The notes under the pieces were generated by a model. The model was not told where the DNA came from and did no database searches. It worked only from the letters and a program-made list of their open reading frames with translations. Of a DNA stretch of 64,000 nucleotides, positions 7,366 to 22,488 are shown one piece after another. A program made the position numbers and the translations under genes. The DNA is taken from contig NZ_AP025739.1 in assembly GCF_003574315.2 (NCBI RefSeq), forward strand, positions 558,001-622,000. The letters run 5' to 3'. Position 1 is the first letter of the stretch. Each line of letters opens with the position of its first letter. The DNA comes from Capsulimonas corticalis (GTDB lineage: Bacteria; Armatimonadota; Armatimonadia; Armatimonadales; Capsulimonadaceae).

Positions 7366-8463
7366 CTATGGGCGCGGCGGTCCCGTGCTTTCCCCGACCA
7401 GCAGATACGGCGCGAGGAATTCCTGGCGCTCTTCCCGGTCCCAGAGCAGATCGATGGCGCGACGCGCGAGGTCGGCGATCGGATGCGCAACGGTGGTCAG
7501 GGTGGGATGGGTGAACCGGCTGCGGCGCACGCCTTCAAAGCCAAGCACGGACAGCTCACCCGGCGCATCGACCCGATGCTCGGCGCACCATTTCAGGACA
7601 GCCCAGGCGCCGGGGTCGGAGACGGTGAAGACGGCGGTCGGATGAGACTCCTGCGCCCATACGGCGTCCATCGCGCCGCCGGCGGCGTCGAACGAGCTGT
7701 CCCCCGGCTTCGAGCCGCAGAGCACGACCCGCGCCTCCGCCATTCCCTGCGACCAGGTGATCCGCTCGAACGCTTCGATCTTCAGCCGCACGGATTCCAC
7801 CTCCGCCGGTTCGTTGACCAGCAGCGTGATCCTTCGGTGCCCGAGCTGCATCAAATGGTCCAGCCCGATCTGGATCGCCTGCGCGTTGTCCGTTCCCACA
7901 TACGAGCCGCGAAATCCGGGTCGGATCGCGTCGACAATCACCGCATGGTAGCCCCGGTCATGCAGCGCCCGGTAAAGCTGGCCCGTGAACCCCTCGGTCT
8001 CGCCCAAAATGATAATCCGCTGCTGATGCGGCGGGAGCGTGACGCGCTCGAACGCCTCGGAGATCTGCTCCCCGTTGTGCGTGTAGTACGGCTGCAATTG
8101 CAGGCCGCGCAGCGACGCCTCCGCCGCGCAGGCTTGAAGCAGCTCGCTTTGAAAGTCGGAATTGTACTGGTGAACGAACAGCCCCAGCAGAGTTGGGCTG
8201 GTCTTTTTCGTGACGGATGTCCCCAGCGCCGCCCGGCGCACCAGCAGCCCCTCGCGCGTCAGTTCCGACAGCGCCTTGCGCACCGTCGCGCGCGACACAT
8301 CCAGCTTGTCCATCAGCAAGGCTTCGGTCCAAAACGCCTGACCATCCTCGCAATGGTTCTCGATGACGTCACGCAGCGTCCCGCGCACCTGAAGGTGCAG
8401 AGGTATGCCTCGGTCCCGGCTGATCAATACGCGATCCAGAAGATCGGTCGATGGATAATTCAT
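7366..8463 (-). CDS. AraR-like regulator, copy 1 (GntR HTH + LacI-type sensor)
   Basis: A 365-aa transcription factor. Residues about 10-80 form a GntR-type winged helix ([34 protein letters not shown]). The rest is a periplasmic-binding-like effector domain of the LacI kind ([27 protein letters not shown]). This GntR-plus-LacI layout is that of AraR, the arabinose-responsive repressor. ATG 8463 is chosen over 8484 because it aligns with the start of the paralogue. The gene has its own promoter with an AraR-box-like site just downstream. It lies next to a closely related copy and upstream of GH43 genes, so arabinose or arabino-oligosaccharides are the likely signal (inference). Confidence 0.85.
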   Translation of the reverse strand: MNYPSTDLLDRVLISRDRGIPLHLQVRGTLRDVIENHCEDGQAFWTEALLMDKLDVSRATVRKALSELTREGLLVRRAALGTSVTKKTSPTLLGLFVHQYNSDFQSELLQACAAEASLRGLQLQPYYTHNGEQISEAFERVTLPPHQQRIIILGETEGFTGQLYRALHDRGYHAVIVDAIRPGFRGSYVGTDNAQAIQIGLDHLMQLGHRRITLLVNEPAEVESVRLKIEAFERITWSQGMAEARVVLCGSKPGDSSFDAAGGAMDAVWAQESHPTAVFTVSDPGAWAVLKWCAEHRVDAPGELSVLGFEGVRRSRFTHPTLTTVAHPIADLARRAIDLLWDREERQEFLAPYLLVGESTGPPRP

Positions 8464-8474
8464 AATTTCGCCCA

Positions 8475-8524
8475 ATGTACGCACAATAACAGTTTATTAT
8501 AACCTTCTGTCGAATCCCTGTCAA
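8475..8524 (-). promoter_or_regulatory. Promoter of AraR-like copy 1 with AraR-box-like operator
   Basis: On the minus strand TTGACA (8524-8519), a 17-bp spacer and TATAAT (8501-8496) make a consensus sigma-70 promoter. Ten bases after the -10, TTGTGCGTACAT (8486-8475) matches the AraR operator core TTGTACGTACAA at 10 of 12 positions. A repressor there would cover the transcription start, implying autoregulation or cross-regulation by the neighbouring copy. Confidence 0.75.
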
Positions 8525-8561
8525 TCACGAACTTTTGGTCCCGATTTCGCGCACAAAAAAA

Positions 8562-8590
8562 GCTCTGAGGACGGGTTTCGTCCTCAGAGC
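8562..8590 (-). terminator. Rho-independent terminator after AraR-like copy 2
   Basis: Perfect 12-bp arms (8562-8573, 8579-8590) with a 5-nt loop, followed on the minus strand by seven T. It separates the two regulator genes into independent transcripts. Confidence 0.9.
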
Positions 8591-8618
8591 AGGTTCCTTG
8601 CAACAAGCGACTTCGGGG

Positions 8619-9719
8619 TTACGGGCTGGGCGCGGGCCCGGTCGAGTCCCCCATAACCAGATGCGGCGGCAGCAGTTCTTGCTTCTCGTCTTTTTCCCAG
8701 AGCAGATCGATCGCGCGCTTCGCCAGGTCGACAATCGGGTGCGCGACGCTTGTGAGGGAGGGGTTCGTAAATCGGCTCGGCCGCACGCCTTCAAAACCAA
8801 GCACGGAGAGCTGCGCGGGGACTTCGATCCGGCGGCCGGCGCACCACTTTAGCGCCGCCCAGGCGCCGGGATCGGAAAGGGTGAAGAGCGCGGTTGGGCG
8901 CGGCTCCTGCATCCAGACTCTGTCCATCGATTGGTACGCGGCGTCGAACGAGCTTTCTCCCAGCTTCGTGCCGCACAGAAACACCCGGCTCTCGTCCAAA
9001 CCCTCTTCGCGACAGATCCGCTCGAATGTCCGGATCTTAACCTGTACGGATTCCACGGCGGCCGGCTCATTCACAAACAGCGTGATGCGCTTGTGTCCGA
9101 GCGAGCGCAGATGGTCCACGCCGAGGCGCACGACCTGTTCGTTATCAGTCCCCACATAAGCGCCCCGAAACCCGGGAAAGATGGCGTCGACCACAACGGC
9201 GCGGTAGCCACGATCCTGCAACGCCTTATAGAGCTGCGAGGTGAACCCCTCGGTCTCGCCCATGATAATGATGCGCTGCTGATGCGGCGGCAGCTTCACG
9301 CGCTCAAACGCTTCGGAAACCTGATCGCCGTTGTGCGTATAGTACGGCTGCATCTGGAAGCCGCGACGGCGGCATTCGTCGGCGCAGGCCTGCAAAAGCT
9401 CGCTCTGATAGTCCGAATTGTACTGATGCACGAACACGCCCAGCGTATTCGCGATAGTCTTCTTGCTGACCGTCGTTCCCAGCGCCGCCCGGCGCACCAG
9501 CAGCCCCTCGCGCGTCAGGTCCGACAGCGCCTTGCGCACCGTCGCGCGCGATACGCCCAGCTTCTGCATCAGCACCGTTTCGGTCCAGAACGGCTGCCCG
9601 TCCTCGCACTGGTGTTCAATGATGTCGCGCAGGATACCCCGCACTTGCAGATGCAGCGGAGCCCCTCGCTCTTTGCTGATCAAAACCCGGTCAAGTAAAT
9701 CGGTCGTTGGTTGGGCCAT
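8619..9719 (-). CDS. AraR-like regulator, copy 2 (GntR HTH + LacI-type sensor)
   Basis: A 366-aa paralogue of the neighbouring regulator, alignable end to end with long identical blocks (for example [42 protein letters not shown]). It has the same order: GntR helix-turn-helix (about 10-75), then LacI-type sugar-binding domain (about 90-360). The DNA-recognition helix ([10 protein letters not shown]) is unchanged between the copies, so both probably bind the same operator, while the effector domain has drifted more. It is the copy nearest the GH43 operon, transcribed divergently from it, with an AraR-box-like site between (9732-9743). A strong terminator ends it. Confidence 0.85.
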
Positions 9720-9731
9720 ATCGTTCGTTTA

Positions 9732-9743
9732 ATATTAGTACAA
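9732..9743 (-). promoter_or_regulatory. Weak AraR-box-like site before AraR-like copy 2
   Basis: The minus strand reads TTGTACTAATAT, keeping the TTGTAC half of the AraR operator but only 8 of 12 core positions. It sits about 13 bp before the ATG of copy 2. The match is modest and rests mainly on position and on better sites nearby. Confidence 0.45.
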
Positions 9744-10058
9744 TTGCCCGGCGGTGGACACAGGAAAACACGGAAAGCGCTGTTAGCGCCGAAACATGGC
9801 GGAAAATTGCCCGGAAACGCCCTCGATCGCCTTCGGCGCGGGGCGTTCTTCCTCACTACTCACTTTATACCATACCCGCCGTTCGATCGCTCTCTTTCCC
9901 CCATGCCCCGCATAATCTTGTCTCATTTCCATCGCAAAGAAACAGTTCGAAAAATACTGCTTGACAGACCTCCGAAGGTTTGGTATATTATACGTACAAA
10001 CCAATTAAGACCAGATGACTGCTCCCGGAGCAGCATCCGACCCAAAGGATCCATCATT
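9744..10058 (+). promoter_or_regulatory. Regulated promoter of the prepilin/GH43 operon
   Basis: TTGACA (9961-9966), a 17-bp spacer and TATATT (9984-9989) form a near-consensus promoter about 70 bp before the prepilin-type gene. Over and after the -10 lies TTATACGTACAA (9988-9999; minus strand TTGTACGTATAA), which matches 11 of 12 bases of the AraR operator core. The site is framed by the inverted hexamers GGTTTG (9978-9983) and CAAACC (9997-10002). A repressor there would block the promoter directly. The rest of this divergent region (about 9744-9950) holds nothing I can identify. Confidence 0.8.
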
Positions 10059-10820
10059 ATGCGTAAAGGTTTTACACTCATCGAGCTGCTAGTTGTTATC
10101 GCCATCATCGCGATTCTAGCCGCAATTCTCTTCCCCGTTTTCGCCAAGGCGCGCGAAAAAGCCCGTCAAGCCAGCTGCGCCAGCAACCTCAAGCAGCTTG
10201 GTCTGGGCGTGATGCAGTATGTTCAGGATAACGACGAAATCTATCCTGTCGGGCGCTCGTTTGCCTCAAATGACCGCAGCGTTCCTTTCGCGAACTGGGG
10301 ACAGCAAATTTATCCCTACGTGAAAAGCACCGGCGTTTATAAGTGCCCTGATGATAGCGCTTCCCCCAGCGTTATGGGCGAGCAAGGCGCGGCGGCGGGA
10401 ACCCCGGTTATCCCCGGTTCTTACCGCTACAATTTCGAGCTAGGCGCAACTTATGGTTCCGGCGGCACGGATTGGGGCGGTGCGCACTCGATCGCCAGCA
10501 TCAACGAGCCTGTCACTCGGATCCTGGTGTCGGACGCCAACCCGGGCGGCGAAGCAGGAATGGTTTGGGGGGACTGGGGAGCGAATCAGTTCCTGGACAC
10601 CGGCCGCGCTAACCACACCGGCCAGCTCAATCTGCTCTTCATGGACGGTCACGTCAAATCTGTGCGACCGATCCAGACAGTCTCAAACGGTTCTATGTGG
10701 GGTCAGATCAACGGCTCGACCTGTGACGCGGGCCCGGCGGGACGAGACGCCATCAATTGCAACGACACCAACGCCACGATCGTGTCGGATATGGCGCTTC
10801 TCGAACAGAAATACAAGTAA
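10059..10820 (+). CDS. Prepilin-type protein with H-X9-DG motif
   Basis: A 253-aa type II/IV pseudopilin-like protein. It begins with the classic leader [20 protein letters not shown], where prepilin peptidase cuts after the glycine and methylates the phenylalanine, followed by the hydrophobic helix and [16 protein letters not shown]. The C-terminal part contains [15 protein letters not shown], the H-X9-DG motif of the large DUF1559-type families of Planctomycetota and Armatimonadota. It is the first gene behind the AraR-box promoter, ahead of four GH43 genes, with a terminator after it. Surface capture or assembly linked to polysaccharide use is an inference; these proteins have no firm function. 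Confidence 0.85.
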
Positions 10821-10837
10821 ATACCCCAAGCAATCCG

Positions 10838-10872
10838 GCGGCTGTGCGCTCTCCAGCGCGCAGCCGCTTTTT
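10838..10872 (+). terminator. Intra-operon terminator after the prepilin gene
   Basis: A 13-bp stem (10838-10850 with 10855-10867, one G-U pair), loop CTCC, then five T. No new promoter is evident before the GH43 gene at 10924, so this may be a partial terminator that gives much more prepilin message than enzyme message. Confidence 0.8.
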
Positions 10873-10923
10873 AAGCCTCTCTCGTATTTTCCTCGCGCGC
10901 ATCATCGAGACCTGACAGCAGAT

Positions 10924-11955
10924 ATGACGACAATTGACGATTTCCATAACACTCTGCGGATAAACCCTCTTCCGTTTGCCTACAATGTCGACGGCGCCGC
11001 CTCGCATACCGAGCTGCGCGATCCGTGTATCACGCGTGAGGGCGATACTTATTACCTTGTCTTCACGGTCTGGCCGTTCGCGGGACGGATCGTCGAGCGG
11101 ATGGGATTGCCGGACAATGGGTCGTCGCCGGGGATCGCTTTGTATTCCTCGAAGGATCTGAAGGATTGGGCGTTTGTGACGTGGCTGGTGAAGTCTTCGG
11201 ATTTGGCCGAGGATTGCCCGTACAAGCATCGGTTCTGGGCGCCGGAGATCCATAAGATCCACGGAAGATTTTATCTCATTTTCACGGCCGACAACTGGAA
11301 TAAACTGGAGTACAATCCCGCAGGCGAGTGGTGCGATTCGGGCTACGCGTTTGTCGGAGTGGCGGATGAGATCACGGGACCGTACGAGCATATCACATAT
11401 ATTCATGGGGCCTGCTGCGACACATCGCTGTTCGAGGACAGCGACGGGCGCACATACGCGCTGATTCCACGGATGAATGTGGACGTGCAGGAGATCGATC
11501 TGACGCAGATCGACCGGGACATCGTGACGCTTCTCGGCAAGCCGGAGACGGTCATCACGGCGGATAACAGCGACATCGGCTTCGCGCCTCGGCCGGACTA
11601 TTTAGAAGCCCCCTGGGTCTTTCAGGCGAACGGCCGCTACTACTTTTTGTCCTCAGGGCCATATAAAGCAGACAAATTTCCCGACCACGCCGGATACTGG
11701 GCGGGGGTCGCGTATGCGGACAATATCCGGGGGCCGTGGCGCAAGGATCCGCGCGGGCAGGTCTTTTTGGGCGGACACATGGCGGTGTTCCAGGGGCCGG
11801 ACGGGCAGGATTGGTTTGCGTACCGGGGCGAAATGGAGGACGACAAACGCACGCATGGGCGGCTTTGCGTCGATCCGATCCAATTTGAAGTAGATGGACG
11901 CTTCGCGGCGATGACGCCGACGGCCGGCGCGGCGAAGAACGGAGACGACCAGTGA
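10924..11955 (+). CDS. Glycoside hydrolase family 43, cytoplasmic (GH43-A)
   Basis: A 343-aa five-bladed beta-propeller enzyme of GH43 (arabinofuranosidase/xylosidase family). The family's general-base aspartate lies in TELRDPCI (about residue 33), the second acidic site in HRFWAPEIHKI, and the catalytic acid is probably the glutamate of YLEAPW. No signal peptide is present, so it acts inside the cell on imported oligosaccharides. It is clearly paralogous to the secreted GH43 at 13705 (shared GLPDNGSSPGI-like and WLVKSSDLAE blocks). ATG 10924 is the first start after the terminator. The next gene overlaps its stop by 4 nt. Confidence 0.85.
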   Translation: MTTIDDFHNTLRINPLPFAYNVDGAASHTELRDPCITREGDTYYLVFTVWPFAGRIVERMGLPDNGSSPGIALYSSKDLKDWAFVTWLVKSSDLAEDCPYKHRFWAPEIHKIHGRFYLIFTADNWNKLEYNPAGEWCDSGYAFVGVADEITGPYEHITYIHGACCDTSLFEDSDGRTYALIPRMNVDVQEIDLTQIDRDIVTLLGKPETVITADNSDIGFAPRPDYLEAPWVFQANGRYYFLSSGPYKADKFPDHAGYWAGVAYADNIRGPWRKDPRGQVFLGGHMAVFQGPDGQDWFAYRGEMEDDKRTHGRLCVDPIQFEVDGRFAAMTPTAGAAKNGDDQ

Positions 11956-13379
11956 CAATGCAGATGACGGAGCGACGGACGGAATGCGCCGCCGACAGGC
12001 TGGAGCCGATCGTGCGCGGCGACTACCCCGATCCGACGATCATTCGCGTCGGGCAGGACTACTACCTGACGCACTCGGCCAACTCCTTCGCGCCGGCGCT
12101 GCTGATCTGGCATTCCACCGACCTGAAGAACTGGACGCCGCTGGCGCACGCGCTCACCGAGTATGACGGCGATGTCTGGGCTCCGGACCTCGCCTACCAT
12201 CAAGGCAAGTTTTACATCTACTATACAACTTCGGGAAAGAACCACGTCATCGTCGCCGACGATATTCGGGGACCGTGGAGCGAGCCCGTCGATCTGAATG
12301 TCCCGCATATCGATCCAGGGCACCACGCCCTGCCCGACGGGCGGCGGTTCCTGCATCTCTCCGGCGGACATCAGATTGAATTGACCGCGGACGGCCTTGC
12401 GACCAAGGGCGAGATGCGCAAGATCTACAACGGCTGGCCGATCCCCTTCCCCACACAGATCGAGGGCATGGCCGAGGAAAGCCCCAAAGCGTTCTTCCGA
12501 GACGGCTGGTATTATCTCATCACCGCGCAAGGCGGCACGGCCGGTCCCGCGACAGGCCATATGGTGGTCGCCGCCCGCTCGCGCCGCCATGACGGTCCTT
12601 ACGAGAACGCGCCGCACAATCCCTTGATCCGTACGGGACATCGCCGCGAGCGCTGGTGGTCGCGCGGCCACGCGACGCTGATCGAAGACGCCGTCGGCGA
12701 TTGGTGGATCGTCTACCACGCCTACGAGCGCGGCTACGTCAGCCTCGGCCGGCACACAATGCTTCAGCGCGTCGAGTGGCGGGACGGCTGGCCGTATGTG
12801 ACCGACGAATGCTTCGCCGCGCCCCCTCGCCAAACGCCGCTGTCCGACCGTTTCGATAGCCCGGAGCTTGGCTGGCAATGGCAGTTCAACGGCGAAATGG
12901 ATCGAACGCGCTTCCAGGCAGGCGGCGGCGCCCTGCGTCTCCAGGCACGCGGCGAATCGCCCTCGGACGGCAGCGCGCCGCTCTGCATCCGCCCGCAAGA
13001 TCGCGCCTATCAAGTCGAAGTCGATGTCGAAATCTCCGGCGACGGAACCGAAGCCGGCCTGCTCTTCTTCTACGACGCAACGGCCTACACGGGACTGGCG
13101 CTGACGGATTCGCACATTATGCTCCGACTGCGCAAGCATCACGAAAAGGCCGTGGATCTGCCGGTCCGCCGAGCCACGCTGCGCCTTGTCAACGATCACC
13201 ACGATGTCGAGTACTGGGTCCGAATCGCCGGCGGCGAATGGGAGCAGATCGCGCGCGGCAACGAAATCTCCGGCTGGAACCACAACGCCCTCGGCGGCTT
13301 CCTCGGCCTGCGCGTCGCTCTCTACGCAGCCGGACCCGGCGAAGCCGTGTTCCGTGATTTCCGGTATGAGGCGTTGTAA
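11952..13379 (+). CDS. Glycoside hydrolase family 43 with C-terminal beta-sandwich, cytoplasmic (GH43-B)
   Basis: A 475-aa enzyme. The GH43 propeller fills about residues 15-290, with RGDYPDPTIIRVGQDYY (general base), DVWAPDLAYHQGKFY, and MAEESPKAFFRDGWYY (probable acid). Residues about 300-475 are a concanavalin-like beta-sandwich, as in GH43 xylosidases/arabinofuranosidases. It starts with GTG overlapping the previous TGA (GTGA), with GGAG 7 nt upstream, so it is translationally coupled. It lacks a signal peptide. Exact specificity, xylose or arabinose, cannot be read from sequence alone. Confidence 0.85.
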   Translation: MTMQMTERRTECAADRLEPIVRGDYPDPTIIRVGQDYYLTHSANSFAPALLIWHSTDLKNWTPLAHALTEYDGDVWAPDLAYHQGKFYIYYTTSGKNHVIVADDIRGPWSEPVDLNVPHIDPGHHALPDGRRFLHLSGGHQIELTADGLATKGEMRKIYNGWPIPFPTQIEGMAEESPKAFFRDGWYYLITAQGGTAGPATGHMVVAARSRRHDGPYENAPHNPLIRTGHRRERWWSRGHATLIEDAVGDWWIVYHAYERGYVSLGRHTMLQRVEWRDGWPYVTDECFAAPPRQTPLSDRFDSPELGWQWQFNGEMDRTRFQAGGGALRLQARGESPSDGSAPLCIRPQDRAYQVEVDVEISGDGTEAGLLFFYDATAYTGLALTDSHIMLRLRKHHEKAVDLPVRRATLRLVNDHHDVEYWVRIAGGEWEQIARGNEISGWNHNALGGFLGLRVALYAAGPGEAVFRDFRYEAL

Positions 13380-13384
13380 GGGCA

Positions 13385-13690
13385 GTGTGTGACCTACCCC
13401 GGCCTTCGGGCGCCTCGGGCAAACCCACCTCGGTGGTTCGCGTACTCCCTTGCAAACCCACCCCCGGCCTTCGGCCGACCCCTCCCGCCGACGGGAAGGG
13501 TGATTTCAGAGTGTGTTATCGCAGGCGGCCTTCGTCAGAGGCAATCCTACGAACCCTTCCCGTCGGCGGGAGGGGTGGCCCGAAGGGCCGGGGTGGGTTT
13601 GCCCGAGGCGCCCGAAGTCCGGGGTGGGTTTGCAAGGGAGTACGCGAGGCGCCACGGCGGGTTTGCCAACAGCCGGCCATCAAAACAATG
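13385..13690. repeat. Large imperfect inverted repeat between GH43 genes
   Basis: About 300 bp of non-coding, very GC-rich sequence. The left half carries CGGGCGCCTCGGGCAAACCC, a second CAAACCCACC module, and CCTCCCGCCGACGGGAAGGG. The right half carries the reverse complements: CCCTTCCCGTCGGCGGGAGG, then GGTGGGTTTGCCCGAGGCGC and a further GGTGGGTTTGCAAGGGAGTA. The right half repeats the GGTGGGTTTGC module at least twice, so the element is built from iterated blocks and can fold into a long hairpin. It splits the GH43 operon and could stabilise or attenuate the transcript. Confidence 0.75.
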
Positions 13691-13704
13691 AAAGTCATCT
13701 TTCC

Positions 13705-14802
13705 ATGTCTAAAAATTTGCGCCCTATTTTAATCACTCTCGCGTTCCTGGCCGCCACCGCCGCCCACGCCGCGCCGAAGACGTTTACGTATTCCAATCCG
13801 CTGAATTTTCAGTACACGACAGAGAAGACGCCGGCGGAGCAGGAGCTGCGTGATCCGTGCATCATTCATGAGGGCGATACCTACTACACGATCTTCACGA
13901 TGTGGCCGTTCGCCAACAAAGAAGATGGGCGAATGGGGCTGACCGACAATGGATCGTCGCCGGGCATTCGCATCTACTCGTCGAAGGATCTGAAGAACTG
14001 GACGCCGGGGAAGTGGCTGGTGAAGTCTTCGGATTTGGCCGAGAATTGCCCGTACAAGCACCGGTTCTGGGCGCCGGAGATCCATAAGATCCAGGGCAAA
14101 TTCTATCTGATCTTCACGGCGGACAACTGGCTGAAGAAAGAATACAATTCGTCGGGCGAATGGGGTTATCACGCCTTTGTCGGCGTTGCGGACAAAGTGA
14201 CGGGGCCGTACAAGCACATCACCTATATCAAGGACAGCGCCTGCGACACGACCATCATGGACGGCGGCGACGGCAAGGTCTACGCGATCATGCCGTTTGG
14301 CGATCTCTTCGAGCAGCCGATCGATCTGAGCCAATTGGAGCAGGATAAGATCACGCTGGGCGAACGCAAAAAGATCTTCTCGAAGAACAGCGACGATCCC
14401 GCGCAGCCCAGCCCCGGCTATTGTGAAGGCCCCTGGGGCATGAAGATCGGCAAGCGATACTATCTATTTTACGCCGAGAACTTTGAAAACGGCGGATACT
14501 GGACCGGCGTCGCGTACGCCGACAACCCGCTTGGCCCCTGGCGCAAGGACCCGCGCATGAAGCTGTTCGAAGGCGGCCATCTGACCGTCTTCAAAGGCCC
14601 GGATTACCGCTACTGGTTTGGATATCGCGGCGAAAGCGGCGGCGCATCGGGGGGACGACTCTGCGCCGATCCATTCACGATCGCCGCCGACGGAACCGTC
14701 CAGCCGATCGCCCCCACGACCGGCCCGCAAACGGTCATCCTGCCGCCGCCTCTCCCGCACGCCCGGCCGGCGCATCCTCGGCTGGCGTATAAGAAACATT
14801 GA
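13705..14802 (+). CDS. Glycoside hydrolase family 43, secreted (GH43-C)
   Basis: A 365-aa enzyme with a cleavable signal peptide (MSKNLRPILITLAFLAATAA, cut after HAA). The propeller resembles GH43-A: ELRDPCI with the general base, LTDNGSSPGI, HRFWAPEIHKI, and a catalytic-acid candidate in YCEGPWGM. This is an exported version of the cytoplasmic GH43-A, suggesting that the same linkage is cut outside and again inside. An open frame extends upstream to 13513 through the inverted repeat; ATG 13705 is chosen because the signal peptide starts there. The C-terminal 30 residues are proline-rich. It overlaps the next gene by one base. Confidence 0.85.
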   Translation: MSKNLRPILITLAFLAATAAHAAPKTFTYSNPLNFQYTTEKTPAEQELRDPCIIHEGDTYYTIFTMWPFANKEDGRMGLTDNGSSPGIRIYSSKDLKNWTPGKWLVKSSDLAENCPYKHRFWAPEIHKIQGKFYLIFTADNWLKKEYNSSGEWGYHAFVGVADKVTGPYKHITYIKDSACDTTIMDGGDGKVYAIMPFGDLFEQPIDLSQLEQDKITLGERKKIFSKNSDDPAQPSPGYCEGPWGMKIGKRYYLFYAENFENGGYWTGVAYADNPLGPWRKDPRMKLFEGGHLTVFKGPDYRYWFGYRGESGGASGGRLCADPFTIAADGTVQPIAPTTGPQTVILPPPLPHARPAHPRLAYKKH

Positions 14803-16703
14803 TGAAACACCACAAGACACTCTTCGCATTGACTTGCGCCGCAGCGGCGCTCGCGCCCTTTGCCGCGTCCGCGCAGCGCGAGATCATTCTGCCGGCGGCG
14901 CGCGACGCCAACGCGCCCGGCGGCCTGCCGGGCCTGCGCCAGCTCGACATCCAGCCTGGAATGCGCGATCCGAATATCTGCCATTCCCCCGACGGCTTTT
15001 ATTATCTGACCGGCACCATCGATCCCGCCGACGGCCACACAAGCATGTGGGAGGCAAACGACGGGGTCCCCTTATGGCGCTCGAAGGATCTGATTCACTG
15101 GACATCGCTAGGGATCGTCTGGAGCCTGGAGCGCGACGCCACCTGGTCCAGGAAGTGGGTGAGCGAGGGCGGAGGCAAACCGCGCCGGGCCGTCTGGGCT
15201 CCGGAGATCCATTACTTCAACGGAACGTACTGGATCCCTTACAGCATGAACTACTACGAAATCGGCATCCTCAAGAGCCAGACCGGCAAGCCCGAGGGTC
15301 CATACCGCGACGTCAAGACGGACGGCCCGATCGTCAGCGGCATCGACCCTTCGCTGTTTCAGGATGACGACGGCAAGGTCTACCTGCTGCATGACAGCTT
15401 CAATATCGCGCGTCTCAAGCCCGATCTGAGCGCGCTGGACGAGCCCGACCGCAAGTTCACCTTCACGGACAATACATACGGCTGGGGCGAGGGGATCTAT
15501 CTGGTCAAGAACCACGGGCGATATATCTTCATCAACACGATCGATCCGATGCACAATACGGACGGCAAGCTGCCGGACACCTACGACAACACGTCCGCGG
15601 TGTCGACCGGCTCGATCTATGGGCCATACACGCCGCGCCGCCGCGCGATCCCGCATGACGGGCACAACAATCTGTTCCAGGACTCCCGGGGCGGCTGGTG
15701 GTCTACGTATTTCGGCTCCGGCCCGTTCGGCCCCTGGGCAATCCGCGCGAGCGTCCTCCCGGTCGCGTTCACGCCGGAAGGACGGCTTACGATCCGACGC
15801 ACGACGCCCCGCCCCGTCTGGCGCTACACCACGACCGCGCCCAAGGGCGCATGGACCACGGCCAGCTACGCCGCGAAGGATTGGAAATCGGGCGCCGGCG
15901 CCTTCGGCGATCCCGAAGTCTCCCAGTTCGGACAGTTCACGGATGTCGGCGCGATCTGGCGGACCTCCGACATCTGGATGCGTCAGACATTCACCCTGCG
16001 ATCCCATATCCTCGGGACGCCGCAGCTCTACATCCGTCATAACGGCCCGGCCGAGATCTGGCTGAACGGCAAAATCGCGGCGACGCTCGCCGGCGCGACC
16101 AGCGACTACGTTCAAGTCACGCTCCCGGACCCTCATTCGCTTCAGCCCGGCGCCAACACCCTCGCCGTCCACTGCCAGAGCGGCGGTCTCGGTTATATCG
16201 ACGTCGGCATTGTCTCCGACCCCAGCGTCCTCGCCGCCACCTCCGAAAGCGAAGCGCAGTCGTGGAAGTACACAACTCAAACGCCGGCGACAGATTGGAG
16301 CGCGCCCAAATTTCCGGCGGCAAATTGGCTGACCGGCGATGCGTTCTTCGGCAGCGGCCTGCCGGGCGTACGCACCCCCTGGACGACCAGCGACATCTGG
16401 ATGCGCCGTACATTCACCCTGACCCACGCGCCACGCGATCCCCGATTGCGCCAGTTCCATGATGACGACGCCGAAGTCTACATCGACGGCGTCGCCGCCG
16501 CGACGCTTACTGGCTACAACACGGCGTATGAGACATCGCCGATCGATGGCGCCGCTCGCCAGCGTTTGACGCCCGGCGTCCACACGCTCGCCGTACACTG
16601 CGGCCAGAAGACCGGCGGCCAGGGGATCGATGTGGGAATTGTGGATGCATGGACAGCTCCGCGCTCTGCAACACGGATCGCGGGGAGATCGAAAAGTCGC
16701 TGA
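14802..16703 (+). CDS. Secreted GH43 with two C-terminal beta-sandwich repeats (GH43-D)
   Basis: A 633-aa exported enzyme. The signal peptide is MKHHKTLFALTCAAAALAPF up to ASA. A GH43 propeller follows (about 25-345) with GMRDPNICHSPDG, RRAVWAPEIHYF, GIDPSLFQDDDG and a catalytic-acid candidate in WGEGIYL. After it come two similar modules of about 130 residues, marked by WRYTTTAPKGAW / WKYTTQTPATDW, TSDIWMRQTFTL / TSDIWMRRTFTL and NTLAVHC / HTLAVHC. They look like jelly-roll carbohydrate-binding modules duplicated in place. The ATG overlaps the preceding TGA (TGATG), so it is coupled to GH43-C. Confidence 0.85.
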   Translation: MKHHKTLFALTCAAAALAPFAASAQREIILPAARDANAPGGLPGLRQLDIQPGMRDPNICHSPDGFYYLTGTIDPADGHTSMWEANDGVPLWRSKDLIHWTSLGIVWSLERDATWSRKWVSEGGGKPRRAVWAPEIHYFNGTYWIPYSMNYYEIGILKSQTGKPEGPYRDVKTDGPIVSGIDPSLFQDDDGKVYLLHDSFNIARLKPDLSALDEPDRKFTFTDNTYGWGEGIYLVKNHGRYIFINTIDPMHNTDGKLPDTYDNTSAVSTGSIYGPYTPRRRAIPHDGHNNLFQDSRGGWWSTYFGSGPFGPWAIRASVLPVAFTPEGRLTIRRTTPRPVWRYTTTAPKGAWTTASYAAKDWKSGAGAFGDPEVSQFGQFTDVGAIWRTSDIWMRQTFTLRSHILGTPQLYIRHNGPAEIWLNGKIAATLAGATSDYVQVTLPDPHSLQPGANTLAVHCQSGGLGYIDVGIVSDPSVLAATSESEAQSWKYTTQTPATDWSAPKFPAANWLTGDAFFGSGLPGVRTPWTTSDIWMRRTFTLTHAPRDPRLRQFHDDDAEVYIDGVAAATLTGYNTAYETSPIDGAARQRLTPGVHTLAVHCGQKTGGQGIDVGIVDAWTAPRSATRIAGRSKSR

Positions 16704-16878
16704 AGCAGACGTGGGGCATTTTCTGGGGTTTTCGCCGTTGGGACGCAAATCGAAACGCTCCGACACTCCCCATTCGCGAGAATAACCTCGTTTCGTGTCA
16801 CAATAATGCAGAAGAGACCGGCCTGAGCGCGAGCGCGCCGGACGGCTCAAAACGACGATTGGATGCAACAGAATAGCC

Positions 16879-17916
16879 ATGACGCTACGCACAGATATTC
16901 CCCACCGGCGATTGAACGCGCTGACCGGTGAGTGGGTTCTCGTTTCCCCGCACCGCACGCTGCGGCCCTGGCAGGGCAAACAAGAAACGGCCGCGCGCGA
17001 GCAGCGCCCTCCGTACGATCCGAAATGCTATCTCTGCGCCGGCAACGAACGCGCCGGCGGCGAGAAGAACCCGGAGTACACCGGGACCTATGTCTTCCAG
17101 AATGATTACGCGGCGCTGCTGCCGCAGGCGCACGACGCCGACACGGCCGCCGACACGCTATTCCATACCCAGGCCGTTTCGGGCGAATGCCGCGTGATCT
17201 GCTTCTCGCCGCGCCACGACTGGACCCTGCCCGTCATGCCCGTGGAGGCGATCCGGGGCGTGGTGGATGTCTGGGCCGCGCAATCCGAAGAACTGGGCGT
17301 CCGATACCGATGGGTGCAGGTCTTCGAGAACAAGGGCGAGATCATGGGATGCTCCAACCCGCATCCCCACGGCCAGATCTGGGCGAGCGACTTCCTGCCC
17401 AACGAAGCCGCGATGGAAGACAAGCGCCAGCGCGAGTATCGCGCCACGCACGACGCGCCGCTGCTGCTCGATTATCTCGACGGCGAGTTGAAGGACGGCT
17501 CCCGCATCGTCGTACAGAACGAGCACTGGGTGACCGTAATCCCGTTCTGGGCCGTCTGGCCGTACGAGACGCTGCTGCTGCCGCGCCGCCACGTGCTGCG
17601 CCTTTCGGATCTGACGGACGCCGAGCGGGACAGCCTCGCCGATATCCTGAAACGGCATCTTTCGCGCTACGACAACCTGTTCGAAGTGTCATTCCCCTAC
17701 TCCATGGGCTGGCACGCCGCGCCGAATATCCCCGGCGAGGACCAATCGCACTGGCAGTTGCACGCGCACTTCTACCCGCCGCTGCTGCGCTCCGCCACGG
17801 TGAAGAAGTTCATGGTCGGCTACGAAATGCTCGCCGAAGCCCAGCGCGACCTCACCGCCGAACAGGCCGCGCAGACACTCGCCGCCCTGCCGGACCAGCA
17901 CTACACCGAACGTTGA
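16879..17916 (+). CDS. galT: Galactose-1-phosphate uridylyltransferase
   Basis: A 345-aa enzyme of the Leloir pathway that exchanges UMP between UDP-glucose and galactose-1-phosphate. The active-site motif NPHPHGQIW (about residues 157-165) includes the nucleophilic histidine. The zinc site CYLCAG lies near residue 50, and a second conserved region [11 protein letters not shown] is near residue 290. The length is normal. It stands 175 bp after the GH43 operon and 170 bp before a GH110-like enzyme and so fits the use of galactose released from plant arabinogalactan. No galK or galE is in the window. Confidence 0.93.
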
Positions 17917-17970
17917 TAGAGCTTTGATGATCGAATAGCGAACGGGACGATAACGAAAGCCAGCGAATTA

Positions 17971-18060
17971 GGAGCCGGCGGTTGAAAACCGCCGGTTCCG
18001 AGACTCTTACAGACTGGGCATCCCCAGGACGTTCAATTGCCGGATTCGAATTCGCCGGCC
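17971..18060. repeat. Palindromic intergenic element (cloverleaf-like family, degenerate copy)
   Basis: CCGGCGGTT-GAA-AACCGCCGG (17975-17995) is followed by CTGGG-CATC-CCCAG and ends GAATTCGCCGGCC. The GCCGGCG ends and inner hairpin resemble the elements at 42658 and 49124. It lies just before the GH110-like gene. Confidence 0.55.
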
Positions 18061-18088
18061 CTTTCCTACCTTGGAACCGAAAGACCGA

Positions 18089-19759
18089 ATGACTAATCTC
18101 GAAGACTTCTTTTTCTCCGTGGATACGGAAAACAACGACGCCACTCCGGCGGTGCGCGCGGCGCTGGCCGCCGCCCGCGCCGGCGGGGAGCGACGGCTGG
18201 TCTTTCCCAAAGCGCGCTACGACTTCTGGCCGGACCGCGCCTTCGAACAGTACTGGTTTATCTCGAACAACGACGAGGGCCTCAAGCGCATCGTGTTTCC
18301 GCTGGAGGGGCTGGAAGACTTCGAGATCGACGGGCAGGGATCGGAGTTCGTCTTTCACGGTTATGTCCTGCCGTTCACGCTGCGCGGCTGCAAAGAGATC
18401 ACGCTGAAGAACTTCTCCATCGACTGGGCGCGCACGTTCCATAGCGAGGCAGTGGTGCTCGCCGCGCGCGAGGGAAGTATCGACATCGAGATTCCCGAGC
18501 AGTTCCCCTACAAGATCCCGCACGATCGGCTGGTCTTCACGGGCGAAGGCGATATCACCTACGATATCTCTAATATGCTGGAGTTCGACACCAACAAGCG
18601 CGAGACCGCGTTCGGCGTCTTTGACAACTTCGCCGTCCACGACTGGCACACGGCCGAGGAGATCGGACCGCGCCAGGTGCGCGTCCACGCCAAGTTCAGC
18701 ACGCTGCCAACGCCCGGCAACACGATGGCGATCATGGACGGCGGACGGCTCTGCCCGACGATCACTATCGAACGCAGCCAGGGCGTCACGGTCCAGAATG
18801 TGACGCTCTACCACTCCGGCGGCATGGGGATCATCGCGCAGCACAGCTCGGATCTGCGCGTGGAGAATTTGACCGTCACGACGCCGCCCGAAAGCGGCCG
18901 CATGATCTCGCTCACCGCCGACGCCACGCACTTCGTCAACTGCGCCGGCGAGATCGTCCTTGAGAACTGCGTCTTCGAAAACCAGATGGACGACGCCACC
19001 AACGTCCACGGCATTTATGGGCAGATCAGCGCGATCGTTTCGCCCACGGAGATCGAGTTCGCGCTGGTCCATCCGCAGCAATTGGGGATCGATATCTTTG
19101 CGGCGGGAGATCCCATCGAGTTCGTGCGCAACACAACGCTGGAGACGTTCCATGAGAACACCGTCGCGCGCGTCGACCGTGTGAACAAACAGTTCACACG
19201 GCTGACACTGGAATCGCCGCTTCCCACGGACCTATCGCTGAAGGACGCGGTGGCGAACCTGCGCTGGATCCCCAATCTGACGGCGCGCGGCTGCCGGTCG
19301 CGCGGCAATCGGGCGCGAGGATTTTTGGTGACGACCGGCGGCAAGGCGCTGATCGAAAACAACCACTTCCATATCGCGGGCGCCGCCATCCTGATCGAAG
19401 GCGACGCGAACTACTGGTTCGAATCGGGCAAGGTGCGCGACGTCACGATCCGGGGCAACCACTTCGAGAACTGCAACTACGGTGTCTGGGGAACCGCCAC
19501 GATTGAAGTCAACCCCGGCGTCGCCGAGCCCTATCGCGCGCAGTCGCTCTACCACCACTCCATCCGGGTGGAGAACAACACGTTCGACGACTTCCACGGA
19601 CGGCTGCTGGCCGCGCACTGCGTGGACGGCCTGACCTTTACCGGCAACGTGATGCGGCCAAGCGGCGCCTATCCCAAACGGAGCGCCGGCGGCGAGCTGC
19701 TGGAGATCACGCACTGCGCCAATGTGGATATCCGCGACAACGATCTTTCGACCTCCTAG
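18089..19759 (+). CDS. GH110-like parallel beta-helix glycosidase (alpha-1,3-galactosidase type)
   Basis: A 556-aa right-handed beta-helix protein with repeated VENLTV/IENNHF/VENNTF-type rungs. The combination FPKARYDFWPD, DDATNVHGIYG and AAILIEGDANYWFESG followed by VRDVTIRGNHFENCNYGVWG is what I associate with GH110 alpha-galactosidases. No signal peptide is seen from MTNLEDFFFS; the start at 18089 is chosen over 18071, and neither has a good Shine-Dalgarno. Location beside galT fits a galactose-releasing enzyme acting in the cytoplasm. A general pectate-lyase-like beta-helix enzyme is the alternative. Confidence 0.7.
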   Translation: MTNLEDFFFSVDTENNDATPAVRAALAAARAGGERRLVFPKARYDFWPDRAFEQYWFISNNDEGLKRIVFPLEGLEDFEIDGQGSEFVFHGYVLPFTLRGCKEITLKNFSIDWARTFHSEAVVLAAREGSIDIEIPEQFPYKIPHDRLVFTGEGDITYDISNMLEFDTNKRETAFGVFDNFAVHDWHTAEEIGPRQVRVHAKFSTLPTPGNTMAIMDGGRLCPTITIERSQGVTVQNVTLYHSGGMGIIAQHSSDLRVENLTVTTPPESGRMISLTADATHFVNCAGEIVLENCVFENQMDDATNVHGIYGQISAIVSPTEIEFALVHPQQLGIDIFAAGDPIEFVRNTTLETFHENTVARVDRVNKQFTRLTLESPLPTDLSLKDAVANLRWIPNLTARGCRSRGNRARGFLVTTGGKALIENNHFHIAGAAILIEGDANYWFESGKVRDVTIRGNHFENCNYGVWGTATIEVNPGVAEPYRAQSLYHHSIRVENNTFDDFHGRLLAAHCVDGLTFTGNVMRPSGAYPKRSAGGELLEITHCANVDIRDNDLSTS

Positions 19760-19873
19760 CCCTCCATTTTAAACGCTATTCCCCAGCAAACGTCGCCCGC
19801 AAATCTCCGCGAGCGGCGTTTTCTTCTGAGGCTCGCCAGTTAGTCACGATTGTTACACACATATGCGCTATTG

Positions 19874-19907
19874 TTGTATGTACGCCGCCCATCCAAAATG
19901 TTATAAT
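19874..19907 (+). promoter_or_regulatory. Candidate AraR-like site and -10 before GH127
   Basis: TTGTATGTACGC (19874-19885) keeps 9 of 12 bases of the AraR operator core, and TATAAT is at 19902-19907. The best -35 at 17 bp spacing overlaps the operator and is poor, so the promoter may need an activator or use another -35. About 100 bp remain to the TTG start. The rest of 19760-20010 shows nothing else I can name. Confidence 0.5.
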
Positions 19908-20010
19908 TTTTGTATGACGACGTGCGGCGACTTTCCAATCGAGCGCCCTGTTCACGTCTTGCTATTATCGCGATATTTCACACGCCGATATCGCACGAAG
20001 GAGCTATTCA

Positions 20011-22488
20011 TTGAAGCGCAGGGATTTTCTCAAATTTGGACTGGCGACCGCCGGCGGCGCCGTTCTCGCCGCGCATGGAACGCAGAGCGCGGAAGCCGCT
20101 GCGGACGGCGCCCGGACGGTCGATGTCGCGGTGACGGACAAGGCCGCCGGCTTTTACACGCCGAACCGCGCGCCGCTGGCCCCCACGCAGTTCTTGAAGC
20201 TGCCGGTCGGCGCGGTGAAGCCCAAAGGTTGGCTGCGCCATCAGCTCGATCTGCAAGTCGACGGACTGTGCGGACGCTATCCCGAGGTCTCCGATTTTCT
20301 GAAGTATGACGGCAACGGCTGGGTGGACCCGACGTCGGGCTCCGGCTGGGAGGAAGTCACCTACTGGCTGCGCGGACTGGCCGATCTGGGTTATGTGACC
20401 GGAGACCCGCGCGTGACGGCGCTGGCGAATAAGTGGATCACGGGGATCATCGCCAGCCAGCAGCCCGACGGCTGGTTTGGCCCCAGCCGGGCGCGCACGA
20501 GCCTGGGCGGCGACCCGGATTTCTGGCCGCACATGCCGGTCTTGTATGCGATCCGCTCATACCAGGAAGTTACGGGCGATCCCAAGGTGATTCCGTTCTT
20601 GACGAAGTATTTCCAGTTCCAGGCAAAGCAGCGTCCCGAGACCTTCGGCAAGGACTGGGCGGGAGTGCGCTGGGGCGATAACATCGACAGCATCTACTGG
20701 CTCTATAACCGCACCGGCGACGCCTTCCTGATCGATCTGGTCAAGATGATCCACGCCAACTCCGCGAAGTGGACCGACGGCGTCGCCAGCCTGCACAACG
20801 TCAACTTCGCGCAGGGCTTCCGCGAGCCCGCCCAGTACGGCGCGATCGCTCAGGACGACAAATTCCTCAACGCCACGAAGCGCAACTACGCCGAGGTAAT
20901 GGGCGAGTTCGGCCAGATGGCCGGCGGCGGCTTCGCCGGCGATGAGAACGCCCGCCACGGCTACGGCGACCCGCGCCAGGGCTTCGAGACCTGCGGCATC
21001 GCCGAGTATATGCTGAGCTTCCAGATCCTGACCCGCCTCACCGGCGAGCCGATCTGGATGGACCGCTGCGAAGAACTCGCGTTCAATATGCTCCCGGCGT
21101 CCTACGATCCCGAGCAGAAGTCGATGCATTACATCACGACGATGAACTGCGTGCAGATCGACAATGACCTCAAGACCCACCATCAGTATCAGAACGACTT
21201 CCCGATGCTCGCCTATCAGCCGGGCGTGCACAACTACCGGTGCTGCCCGCACAACTACGGCATGGCGTGGCCGTACTACTCCGAAAACCTCTGGCATGCG
21301 ACGGCGGACAGGGGGCTTGCCGCGAACCTCTACGCCGCGTCCGAAGTCACGGCGAAGGTCGGCGACGGGACCACGGTCAGCGTCGCCCAGACCACCGAGT
21401 ATCCATTCGGCGACACCGTGAACTTCGCGATCGCCGCGCCCAAGCCGGTCGCGTTCCCGCTCTACCTGCGCATCCCCCGCTGGTGCGCGAACGCCACCGT
21501 CCGCGTCAACGGCAAGCCCGTCGCCGCGCACGCCAGGGCCAGCTCCTATTTGATCGTCCACCGTACTTGGAAGAGCGGCGACACCGTCACGCTGCATCTG
21601 CCGATGGACATCCATGTCCGCACCTGGACCGCCAACAAGAACGCCGTTTCGGTGGATCGCGGCCCGATCACCTATTCACTGGCGATCGGCGAGAAGTGGG
21701 ACCGCTACGCCGGAACCGAGCAGTGGCCGGAATACGCGGTCTATCCGCAAACGCCATGGAACTACGGCCTGGTTCTGGACAAATCCAATCCGGCCCACTC
21801 GTTCGATGTCGCGCAAAAGGGCGGCCCCGTCGCCGCGAACCCGTTTACGCATGGGACCACGCCCATCGAGCTGCGCGTCAAAGCGAAGAAGATACCCCAT
21901 TGGACCGCGGATTCGGAAAATGTGGTCACGCCCTTGCAGATGAGTCCGGCGAAGTCCGCGGAGCCGACGGAAACGGTGTCCCTGATCCCCATGGCCGCTG
22001 CCCGCCTGCGCATCACCTCGTTCCCAACCATCGGCTTCGGCCCCGACGCGCACGATTGGACCATTCCTCCCGCCGCGACCGTCAGCGCGTCCGCCTCGCA
22101 TGTCAACGACAGCCTTGACGCCCTGAACGACAATATCGAGCCGAAGCAGTCCTACGACATGGGCGTCCCGCGCTTCACCTGGTGGGACCACAAAGGAAGC
22201 CAGGAATGGGTTCAGTACGACTACAAAACCCCAAAAACCGTCTCCACCGCGTCCGTCTACTGGTTCGATGACACCGGCCACGGCGAATGCCGCGTCCCCA
22301 AGTCCTGGCGCCTGCTCTACAAAGACGGCAACGACTGGAAGCCCGTCGCCAATTCCTCCGACTACGGCGTCGCGCCCGACAAATACAACACCGTCGCATT
22401 CACCCCCGTAACCACGAGCGGCCTGCGAGTGGAAGTGCAGCTGCAGGACAACTTCTCGGGCGGGGTTCTGGAGTGGAAGGCAGGGTAG
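20011..22488 (+). CDS. GH127-family beta-L-arabinofuranosidase (DUF1680), Tat-exported
   Basis: An 825-aa enzyme. The N-terminus KRRDFLKFG followed by a hydrophobic stretch ending AEAA is a twin-arginine signal, so it is exported folded. The DUF1680/GH127 body has FETCGIAEY (about 324) and RCCPHNYGMAWPYYSE (about 409), matching the conserved Glu and zinc-binding cysteines of beta-L-arabinofuranosidases. The C-terminal 150 residues look like a beta-sandwich module. The start is TTG with GAAGGAG 7 nt upstream; no ATG fits the signal. It should remove beta-linked arabinofuranose from plant glycoproteins or pectin. Confidence 0.88.
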   Translation: MKRRDFLKFGLATAGGAVLAAHGTQSAEAAADGARTVDVAVTDKAAGFYTPNRAPLAPTQFLKLPVGAVKPKGWLRHQLDLQVDGLCGRYPEVSDFLKYDGNGWVDPTSGSGWEEVTYWLRGLADLGYVTGDPRVTALANKWITGIIASQQPDGWFGPSRARTSLGGDPDFWPHMPVLYAIRSYQEVTGDPKVIPFLTKYFQFQAKQRPETFGKDWAGVRWGDNIDSIYWLYNRTGDAFLIDLVKMIHANSAKWTDGVASLHNVNFAQGFREPAQYGAIAQDDKFLNATKRNYAEVMGEFGQMAGGGFAGDENARHGYGDPRQGFETCGIAEYMLSFQILTRLTGEPIWMDRCEELAFNMLPASYDPEQKSMHYITTMNCVQIDNDLKTHHQYQNDFPMLAYQPGVHNYRCCPHNYGMAWPYYSENLWHATADRGLAANLYAASEVTAKVGDGTTVSVAQTTEYPFGDTVNFAIAAPKPVAFPLYLRIPRWCANATVRVNGKPVAAHARASSYLIVHRTWKSGDTVTLHLPMDIHVRTWTANKNAVSVDRGPITYSLAIGEKWDRYAGTEQWPEYAVYPQTPWNYGLVLDKSNPAHSFDVAQKGGPVAANPFTHGTTPIELRVKAKKIPHWTADSENVVTPLQMSPAKSAEPTETVSLIPMAAARLRITSFPTIGFGPDAHDWTIPPAATVSASASHVNDSLDALNDNIEPKQSYDMGVPRFTWWDHKGSQEWVQYDYKTPKTVSTASVYWFDDTGHGECRVPKSWRLLYKDGNDWKPVANSSDYGVAPDKYNTVAFTPVTTSGLRVEVQLQDNFSGGVLEWKAG

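Follow-up and report, generated by a model that had tools for sequence, protein, structure and literature searches.

The window analysed here is a 64,000-nucleotide stretch of the genome of Capsulimonas corticalis (G000; 7.65 Mb, one contig), and the system in question is a pair of neighbouring regulator genes, reg1 and reg2, together with the carbohydrate genes beside them, the first of which encodes a prepilin of the DUF1559 family. Both regulators combine a GntR helix-turn-helix (HTH) with a LacI-type sensor, as AraR does, and operator-like sites stand at the reg1 and prepilin promoters. With a probability of about 0.58, judged from sequence, the two would form a self-repressing, locally acting repressor pair of AraR architecture serving this one prepilin-headed carbohydrate cassette. 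Comparisons rest mainly on a second Capsulimonas genome (G001, 69% complete) and on a genome from another genus of the same family (G005).

The regulator pair and its candidate control sites

The operator consensus of AraR, as given in the original prediction, is TTGTACGTACAA, and the matches below are counted over the 12 bases of the AraR core.

7366..8463, minus strand: reg1, GntR HTH plus LacI-type sensor, 365 amino acids (aa), ATG at 8463; orthologue in G001
8475..8486, minus strand: putative reg1 operator, TTGTGCGTACAT; with one base added on each side, 14/14 identical in G001
8496..8524, minus strand: reg1 promoter, TTGACA (8519-8524), 17 bp, TATAAT (8496-8501); both hexamers conserved in G001
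8562..8590, minus strand: terminator hairpin, a 12-bp stem and then a T run, separating reg2 from reg1
8619..9719, minus strand: reg2, sister of reg1, 72% identical, with the same two domains
9732..9743, minus strand: degenerate reg2 site, ATATTAGTACAA, 8/12; G001 keeps only the half CAATTGTA
9865..9875, minus strand: candidate promoter of reg2, TATGGTATAA, of the extended -10 type (-10 read by eye), in a block conserved in G001
9961..9989, plus strand: prepilin promoter, TTGACA-17-TATATT
9988..9999, plus strand: operator-like site, TTATACGTACAA, 11/12, which overlaps the prepilin promoter at its -10

The site of reg1 (8475-8486, ATGTACGCACAA, 10/12 to the AraR core) lies downstream of TTGACA-17-TATAAT. 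It has two mismatches, a fit with P=0.0038 in 5000 dinucleotide shuffles of the intergenic region, although the shuffle P values given here are somewhat generous because the motif was picked after the sequence had been read. When the DNA upstream of reg1 is aligned between G000 and G001, the operator AATGTACGCACAAT is the longest identical run (14 bases); the surrounding DNA has diverged, with TGTCAA and ATTATA retained. An alternative start for reg1 is the GTG at 8484, in which case the operator falls within the reading frame.

Two relatives carry comparable sites in front of their own genes. The G005 regulator C34 (51% identical) has a 28-bp palindrome, TTGTCCTACTGTACGTACAATAGGACAA, between its own TATAAT and ATG (arms 13/14, P=0.0006), with the same core as the reg1 site and likewise placed behind the -10. 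A third relative, at 1243956 in G000, matches the reg2 query at 37% over residues 59-363 and at 47% over the HTH part, and has CTATTGTTCGTAAAATAG upstream of its start (P=0.009). A GT...AC palindrome in the regulator's own promoter is therefore present at reg1, where it is conserved, and at the G005 relative, and reg2 has a half-site only. This half-site stands 24 and 26 bases from the ATG, compared with 23 for the reg1 site; the nearly equal distance suggests a decayed copy left by duplication, and with its operator decayed reg2 may be under other control. The block at window positions 9865-9905, upstream of reg2, is strongly conserved in G001; its minus strand holds TATGGTATAA, which may be the promoter of reg2. 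The terminator at 8562-8590 should stop the reg2 transcript, so that reg1 would rely on its own promoter.

In the intergenic region between reg2 and the prepilin gene, the 9988 site has a single mismatch (P=0.0004, again from 5000 dinucleotide shuffles). The original prediction had listed four operators, with identities of 11/12 (prepilin promoter), 10/12 (reg1), 9/12 (upstream of the GH127 gene) and 8/12 (reg2), and all four values were reproduced, as was the claim that the best two follow or overlap promoters (TTGACA-17-TATAAT and TTGACA-17-TATATT). As operators, the reg1 and prepilin sites stand; the GH127 site is at chance level and the reg2 site is conserved in one half only.

DNA-reading residues and sensor

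A Pfam domain search places PF00392 (GntR) and PF13377 (Peripla_BP_3) in reg1 and in reg2, in agreement with the layout first proposed. An N-terminal GntR winged helix joined to a GalR/LacI-type C-terminal domain is how a section of PMC4494728 describes the AraR subfamily of GntR, and both regulators have this architecture. In the HTH alignment to AraR, residues E30, R41 and R45 correspond to E, R and R (E/R/R) in reg1, reg2, G005 C34 and the 1243956 regulator; according to a section of PMC4218819, R41 of AraR contacts operator base G5.

Nineteen regulators were found at E≤1e-40, in 4 of 41 genomes, and 16 of them were tabulated for HTH residues and operator-like sites; G000 7575680, G001 C225 and G011 C306 were omitted because their matches do not cover the HTH. 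R41 is replaced by Q, L or K in five of the 16, where the best site has at least four mismatches, and the lack of a good site in these relatives fits the contact between R41 and G5 reported in that part of PMC4218819. Sites with one or two mismatches among the E/R/R regulators belong to both reg1 copies, G005 C34 and the 1243956 regulator; the two reg2 copies, also E/R/R, have half-sites only (four and five mismatches). A simple rule leading from R41 and R45 to the operator is not obeyed by the C6 and C44 relatives in G005, and the L065 regulator (SRGTVRRA; start uncertain, E30 counterpart outside the table) has no site either. With these exceptions included, the link between the E/R/R residues and an AraR-like operator is suggestive, not clean.

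The N-terminal 87 residues of reg2, its DNA-binding part, find their best solved match in YvoA/NagR (E=1.9e-7 versus 5e-6 for AraR), and the nearest solved sensors by sequence profile are LacI, CcpA and RbsR. The AraR sensor, 3tb6, takes 48th place among the 60 best rows when a single sequence is the query and 46th place among the 60 best when a profile is used, many of the rows above it being variants of the same few proteins. A structure prediction for reg2, built from six sequences, has a mean predicted local distance difference test score (pLDDT) of 72.8, too weak for a reading of the sugar pocket; its top fold match is ribose-bound RbsR, the closest folds also include LacI ancestors with D-fucose or methyl-galactoside as ligand, and 3tb6 is not among the 50 best. 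The AraR sensor is thus not the closest of the known sensors. The AraR-type reading accordingly keeps its architecture, its core operator at two promoters and the counterparts of E30, R41 and R45, but loses any special closeness to AraR in the sensor.

The carbohydrate cassette

Downstream of the prepilin promoter, the plus strand carries the following features.

10059..10820, plus strand: DUF1559 prepilin with an H-X9-DG-type C-terminus
10924..11955, plus strand: glycoside hydrolase family 43 (GH43) gene A
11952..13379, plus strand: GH43 gene B, with a GH43_C2 domain; closest solved relatives arabinofuranosidase/xylosidase
13705..14802, plus strand: GH43 gene C, 57% identical to A; start placed at a signal-peptide-like stretch, uncertain
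14799..16703, plus strand: GH43 gene D, 634 aa
16879..17916, plus strand: galT, galactose-1-phosphate uridylyltransferase (NCBIfam equivalog); directly after reg2 in G001
18071..19759, plus strand: GH110 alpha-1,3-galactosidase, E=1.3e-122
19874..19885, plus strand: claimed GH127 site, TTGTATGTACGC, 9/12; chance-level, not conserved, rejected
20011..22488, plus strand: GH127-type enzyme; adjoins galT in G001

The prepilin has the N-methylation motif, the DUF1559 domain and the H-X9-DG end (22.0 bits against a cut-off of 19). In G001 the gene order is a GAF/PAS/GGDEF gene, reg1, reg2, galT and GH127, and galT and GH127 are thus the downstream neighbours retained there. The site before GH127 was rejected as an operator: it has three mismatches (P=0.10, 5000 shuffles) and is lost in G001 though its -10 is kept. 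Two further matches (11214 and 14046) fall within the coding sequence of paralogous GH43 genes and are identical to each other. Plant arabinan had been named as the target of the cluster, and GH43 and GH127 enzymes are indeed there; since galT and an alpha-1,3-galactosidase are linked as well, arabinan is just one possible substrate.

A proposed local, self-repressing pair

In the preferred reading, reg1 and reg2 would be tandem-duplicated chimeric repressors, each a GntR winged helix fused to a LacI-type sugar sensor. A dimer would bind a palindrome with the core TTGTnCGTACAW, just downstream of or over a sigma-70 -10, and so block transcription. At reg1, where site, promoter and their conservation are observed, the predicted binding would amount to self-repression. 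On the 9988 site the same dimer would cover the -10 of the divergent prepilin/GH43 operon, whose repression is predicted from the site. A sugar derived from the polymer would then act as the presumed effector and release the DNA at both sites; galactose or an oligosaccharide of arabinose/galactose is the most likely candidate. Control appears to be confined to the regulators' own gene and the neighbouring cluster, with no sign of a genome-wide arabinose system.

Several results weigh against this reading. In G001 neither the prepilin nor the GH43 genes lie between reg2 and galT, and GH43 A, queried without B and D, has no match at E≤1e-30 in either G001 or G005, which leaves no counterpart of the prepilin site for comparison between species. 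In the shared-motif test described below, the window's own pair of reg1 and prepilin promoters reaches 11/14, no better than swapped pairs (11.1), and the prepilin site could instead serve another GTAC-type GntR protein of this genome. The E/R/R relatives C6, C44a, C44b and C44c of G005 have no site at two or fewer mismatches, the best having three to five. Pattern counts show no enrichment: TATTGTNCGTAMAATA at two or fewer mismatches occurs 13, 4 and 7 times in G000, G001 and G005, where its reversed form occurs 10, 5 and 7 times, and TTGTRCGTACAW has 18 matches in the G001 contig versus 19.0 expected. A composite of promoter plus GTACAW gave 6, 4 and 2 hits in the three genomes and zero for the reversed pattern, an apparent enrichment that was discarded when it disappeared against a SWWSAW control: of the 69 hits to promoter plus SWWSAW in G000, 6 read GTACAW (4.3 expected), and of the 150 in the three genomes 12 do (9.4 expected).

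Alternative readings

A competitor, given somewhat less than even odds, is a galactose- or galactoside-responsive pair whose ancestral partner was galT, the GH43/prepilin cassette having been gained or lost later. The order reg1, reg2, galT, GH127 in G001 speaks for it, as do the GH110 gene in the cluster (E=1.3e-122) and the LacI ancestors with D-fucose or methyl-galactoside among the closest folds. Yet the region upstream of galT has no operator-like site (best match five mismatches), and G001 galT is preceded by none at three or fewer. The fold argument is weakened by the mean pLDDT of 72.8, by the single fold common to all LacI-type sensors and by a top match that is RbsR with ribose.

It is unlikely that the 9988 site serves some other GntR-family regulator and that reg1 and reg2 regulate themselves only. 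Candidates exist: a small GntR gene in G000 bears its own TTGTAC-type palindrome, TTGTACTAGTGAACTAGTACAA, conserved in G001, the 1243956 regulator has a similar site, and the genome holds at least 75 sensor-type regulators. Because TTGTAC halves occur in the operator of the small GntR gene, a TTGTAC half-site is not specific to AraR, and a section of PMC4494728 gives GT...AC as the general GntR operator consensus. Against this, reg2 is directly divergent from the prepilin promoter, and the 9988 site resembles the conserved reg1 operator. The palindrome precedes this small gene, whose product has 137 aa in G001 and by eye is YtrA-like, at G000:4022227-4022273 and G001:C169:10545-10591.

A further candidate site, the one remaining, lies at G000:3570185-3570223 (L112; site 3570210), where TTGACA-17-TATAAT-GTTCGTACAATA precedes a beta-helix gene. 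It resembles the site of the 1243956 regulator more than that of reg1/reg2, and the beta-helix gene is a possible target of the 1243956 regulator. The divergent neighbour of that regulator encodes 1024 aa with ricin-lectin domains and a CBM35 below cut-off, and its N-terminus is similar to the beta-helix protein by eye.

Also unlikely is the regulon first proposed, in which a true AraR with L-arabinose as effector would control arabinan and arabinose genes genome-wide. The AraR architecture, the core operator at two promoters and the GH43 and GH127 enzymes in the cluster would suit it, and galT does not exclude it, as a section of PMC4494728 reports that AraR in Firmicutes also controls xylose and galactose genes. 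The genome-wide scan, however, showed no enrichment: it gave 51 matches at two or fewer mismatches, and the reversed pattern, itself an imperfect control, gave 109. The only araA match in G000 lies at 665484; neither it nor the adjacent GH51 gene nor the FGGY kinase assumed to be araB is preceded by a site at three or fewer mismatches, the best having four. With 50 of the 51 sites compared, no two-mismatch-or-better site lies within 3.5 kb of any of the 10 GH127 genes that pass the Pfam cut-off, and such a site lies within 3.5 kb of three of the eight GH51 matches, via two sites—one inside a GH51 domain and the other (1943693) 850 bp before a GH51 domain, probably inside its frame. Sites before araA, araB and genes for arabinose polymers are therefore missing among the genes covered, GH43 genes elsewhere in the genome lying outside the comparison. 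Together with the low rank of 3tb6 (46th by profile, outside the 50 best folds), the absence of enrichment and of sites before arabinose genes led to rejection of a genome-wide AraR regulon.

At G000:4345959-4345998 (L127), near a GH127 gene, TTGACA-17-TATCAT is overlain at the -10 by a near-palindrome, TATCATTAATGGTA (arms 6/7).

The window holds nine matches at three or fewer mismatches versus 7.6 expected, and 37 of 100 shuffles reach nine, so that the four-site set as a whole is not unusual. That all four are chance matches, as these counts and the flat genome-wide scan might suggest, is nonetheless very improbable given the 14/14 conservation of the reg1 site, the palindrome at the relative from another genus and P=0.0004 at the prepilin promoter.

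Possible regulator-prepilin modules across the genome

A DUF1559 search of G000 gave 152 matches, of which 150 were used, and DUF1559 is present in all seven genomes of this family that were examined. Sensor-type regulators, sought with the reg2 query, gave 78 matches that were merged to 75, with reg1 and reg2 counted as one; the list is incomplete (at least 75), because a LacI regulator at 5624130 is absent from it. For 32 of the 75, a DUF1559 gene is no more than 1.5 kb away, compared with a mean of 4.9 and a maximum of 14 in 5000 rotations of at least 50 kb.

Promoters were compared in 20 regions, chosen by the analyst from those of the 40 regulators that have a DUF1559 gene at 3 kb or less. 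These yielded 23 pairs, in some of which the prepilin was the same; one pair was excluded because its pilin motif is a variant, and leaving out the four divergent pairs brought the number to 18. The best 14-mer shared between regulator and prepilin promoters has a mean of 11.72 matches in these pairs versus 11.10 in swapped ones (P=0.00015). With the window pair added, the 19 pairs give P values of 0.02, 0.00015 and 0.005 for 12-, 14- and 16-mers, and the reversed-sequence control gives nothing (0.95, 0.83 and 0.43).

One such locus, G000:5616920-5625143 (L111, L130), combines a LacI regulator (5624130-5625143) and a GH35 gene with genes for a prepilin and a beta-helix/ricin-lectin protein; a 16/16 stretch, GATTATCACGTGTA, recurs behind the promoter in front of both GH35 and the prepilin. 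Its prepilin is 62% identical to that of the window over 256 residues and is the most similar among 50 others compared; two reach 65-66% over only about 107 residues, and the remaining ones listed are at 39-51%. TTGACA-17-TATTAT-GAGTACAA precedes it at G000:5620884. This promoter was considered as a second target of reg1/reg2 and set aside, the locus having its own LacI regulator and the 16/16 stretch shared by its two promoters. At L078, the prepilin promoter (G000, about 474.4 kb) shows a long palindrome, GGAACCGTTACCATG-ATT-CATGGTAACGGTTCC, just behind a promoter-like TTGACA.

A tentative generalisation, to which somewhat less than an even chance is given, is that polysaccharide use in this organism is organised as dozens of small modules, each with a LacI- or GntR/LacI-type repressor, an operator next to the -10, enzymes and a DUF1559 prepilin. 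In this view each prepilin would be a component, specific to one sugar, of a fibre resembling a pilus or a type II secretion system, and the polymer present would decide which is built in; Bacteroidota use SusCD-type loci, to which this would be an alternative. The module idea is more novel than that of AraR and is the part worth following. Should many DUF1559 prepilins be controlled by a sugar repressor encoded next to them, their part in polymer use could be tested one gene at a time, and the modules would offer a handle on what is a very large gene family in Capsulimonas and Planctomycetes.

Comparison with known systems

The pair resembles AraR of Bacillus subtilis in joining a GntR HTH to a LacI-type sensor, in the counterparts of E30, R41 and R45 and in a palindrome with GTAC halves near the promoter. 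It differs in a sensor that is nearer to LacI, CcpA and RbsR by sequence profile, in the lack of sites before araA or the araB-like kinase, in the presence of galT and GH110 in the cluster and in having a prepilin as the likely first target gene. YvoA/NagR of the HutC subfamily is the best solved match to the DNA-binding domain of reg2, but the sensor of YvoA is of the UTRA type, unlike the LacI-type sensor of reg1 and reg2. Conversely, LacI, CcpA and RbsR provide the closest solved sensor domains, and their DNA-binding domain is a LacI HTH, unlike the GntR winged helix.

The prepilins share their Pfam domain, and membership of a large paralogue family, with the DUF1559/H-X9-DG prepilins of Planctomycetes. 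Parts of PMC10632474 report 68 DUF1559 paralogues in P. limnophila, and passages of that paper and of PMC4807772 describe the family as restricted to Planctomycetes or to the Planctomycetes–Verrucomicrobia–Chlamydiae (PVC) group; here, in contrast, they occur in an armatimonad, often beside sugar-type regulators. Among the listed titles and abstract openings of papers on AraR, Capsulimonas, DUF1559 and Armatimonadota prepilins, none describes such a system. The present reading corrects the idea of an arabinose regulon and would extend chimeric GntR/LacI repressors with AraR-like operators to Armatimonadota, with a conserved site for probable self-repression.

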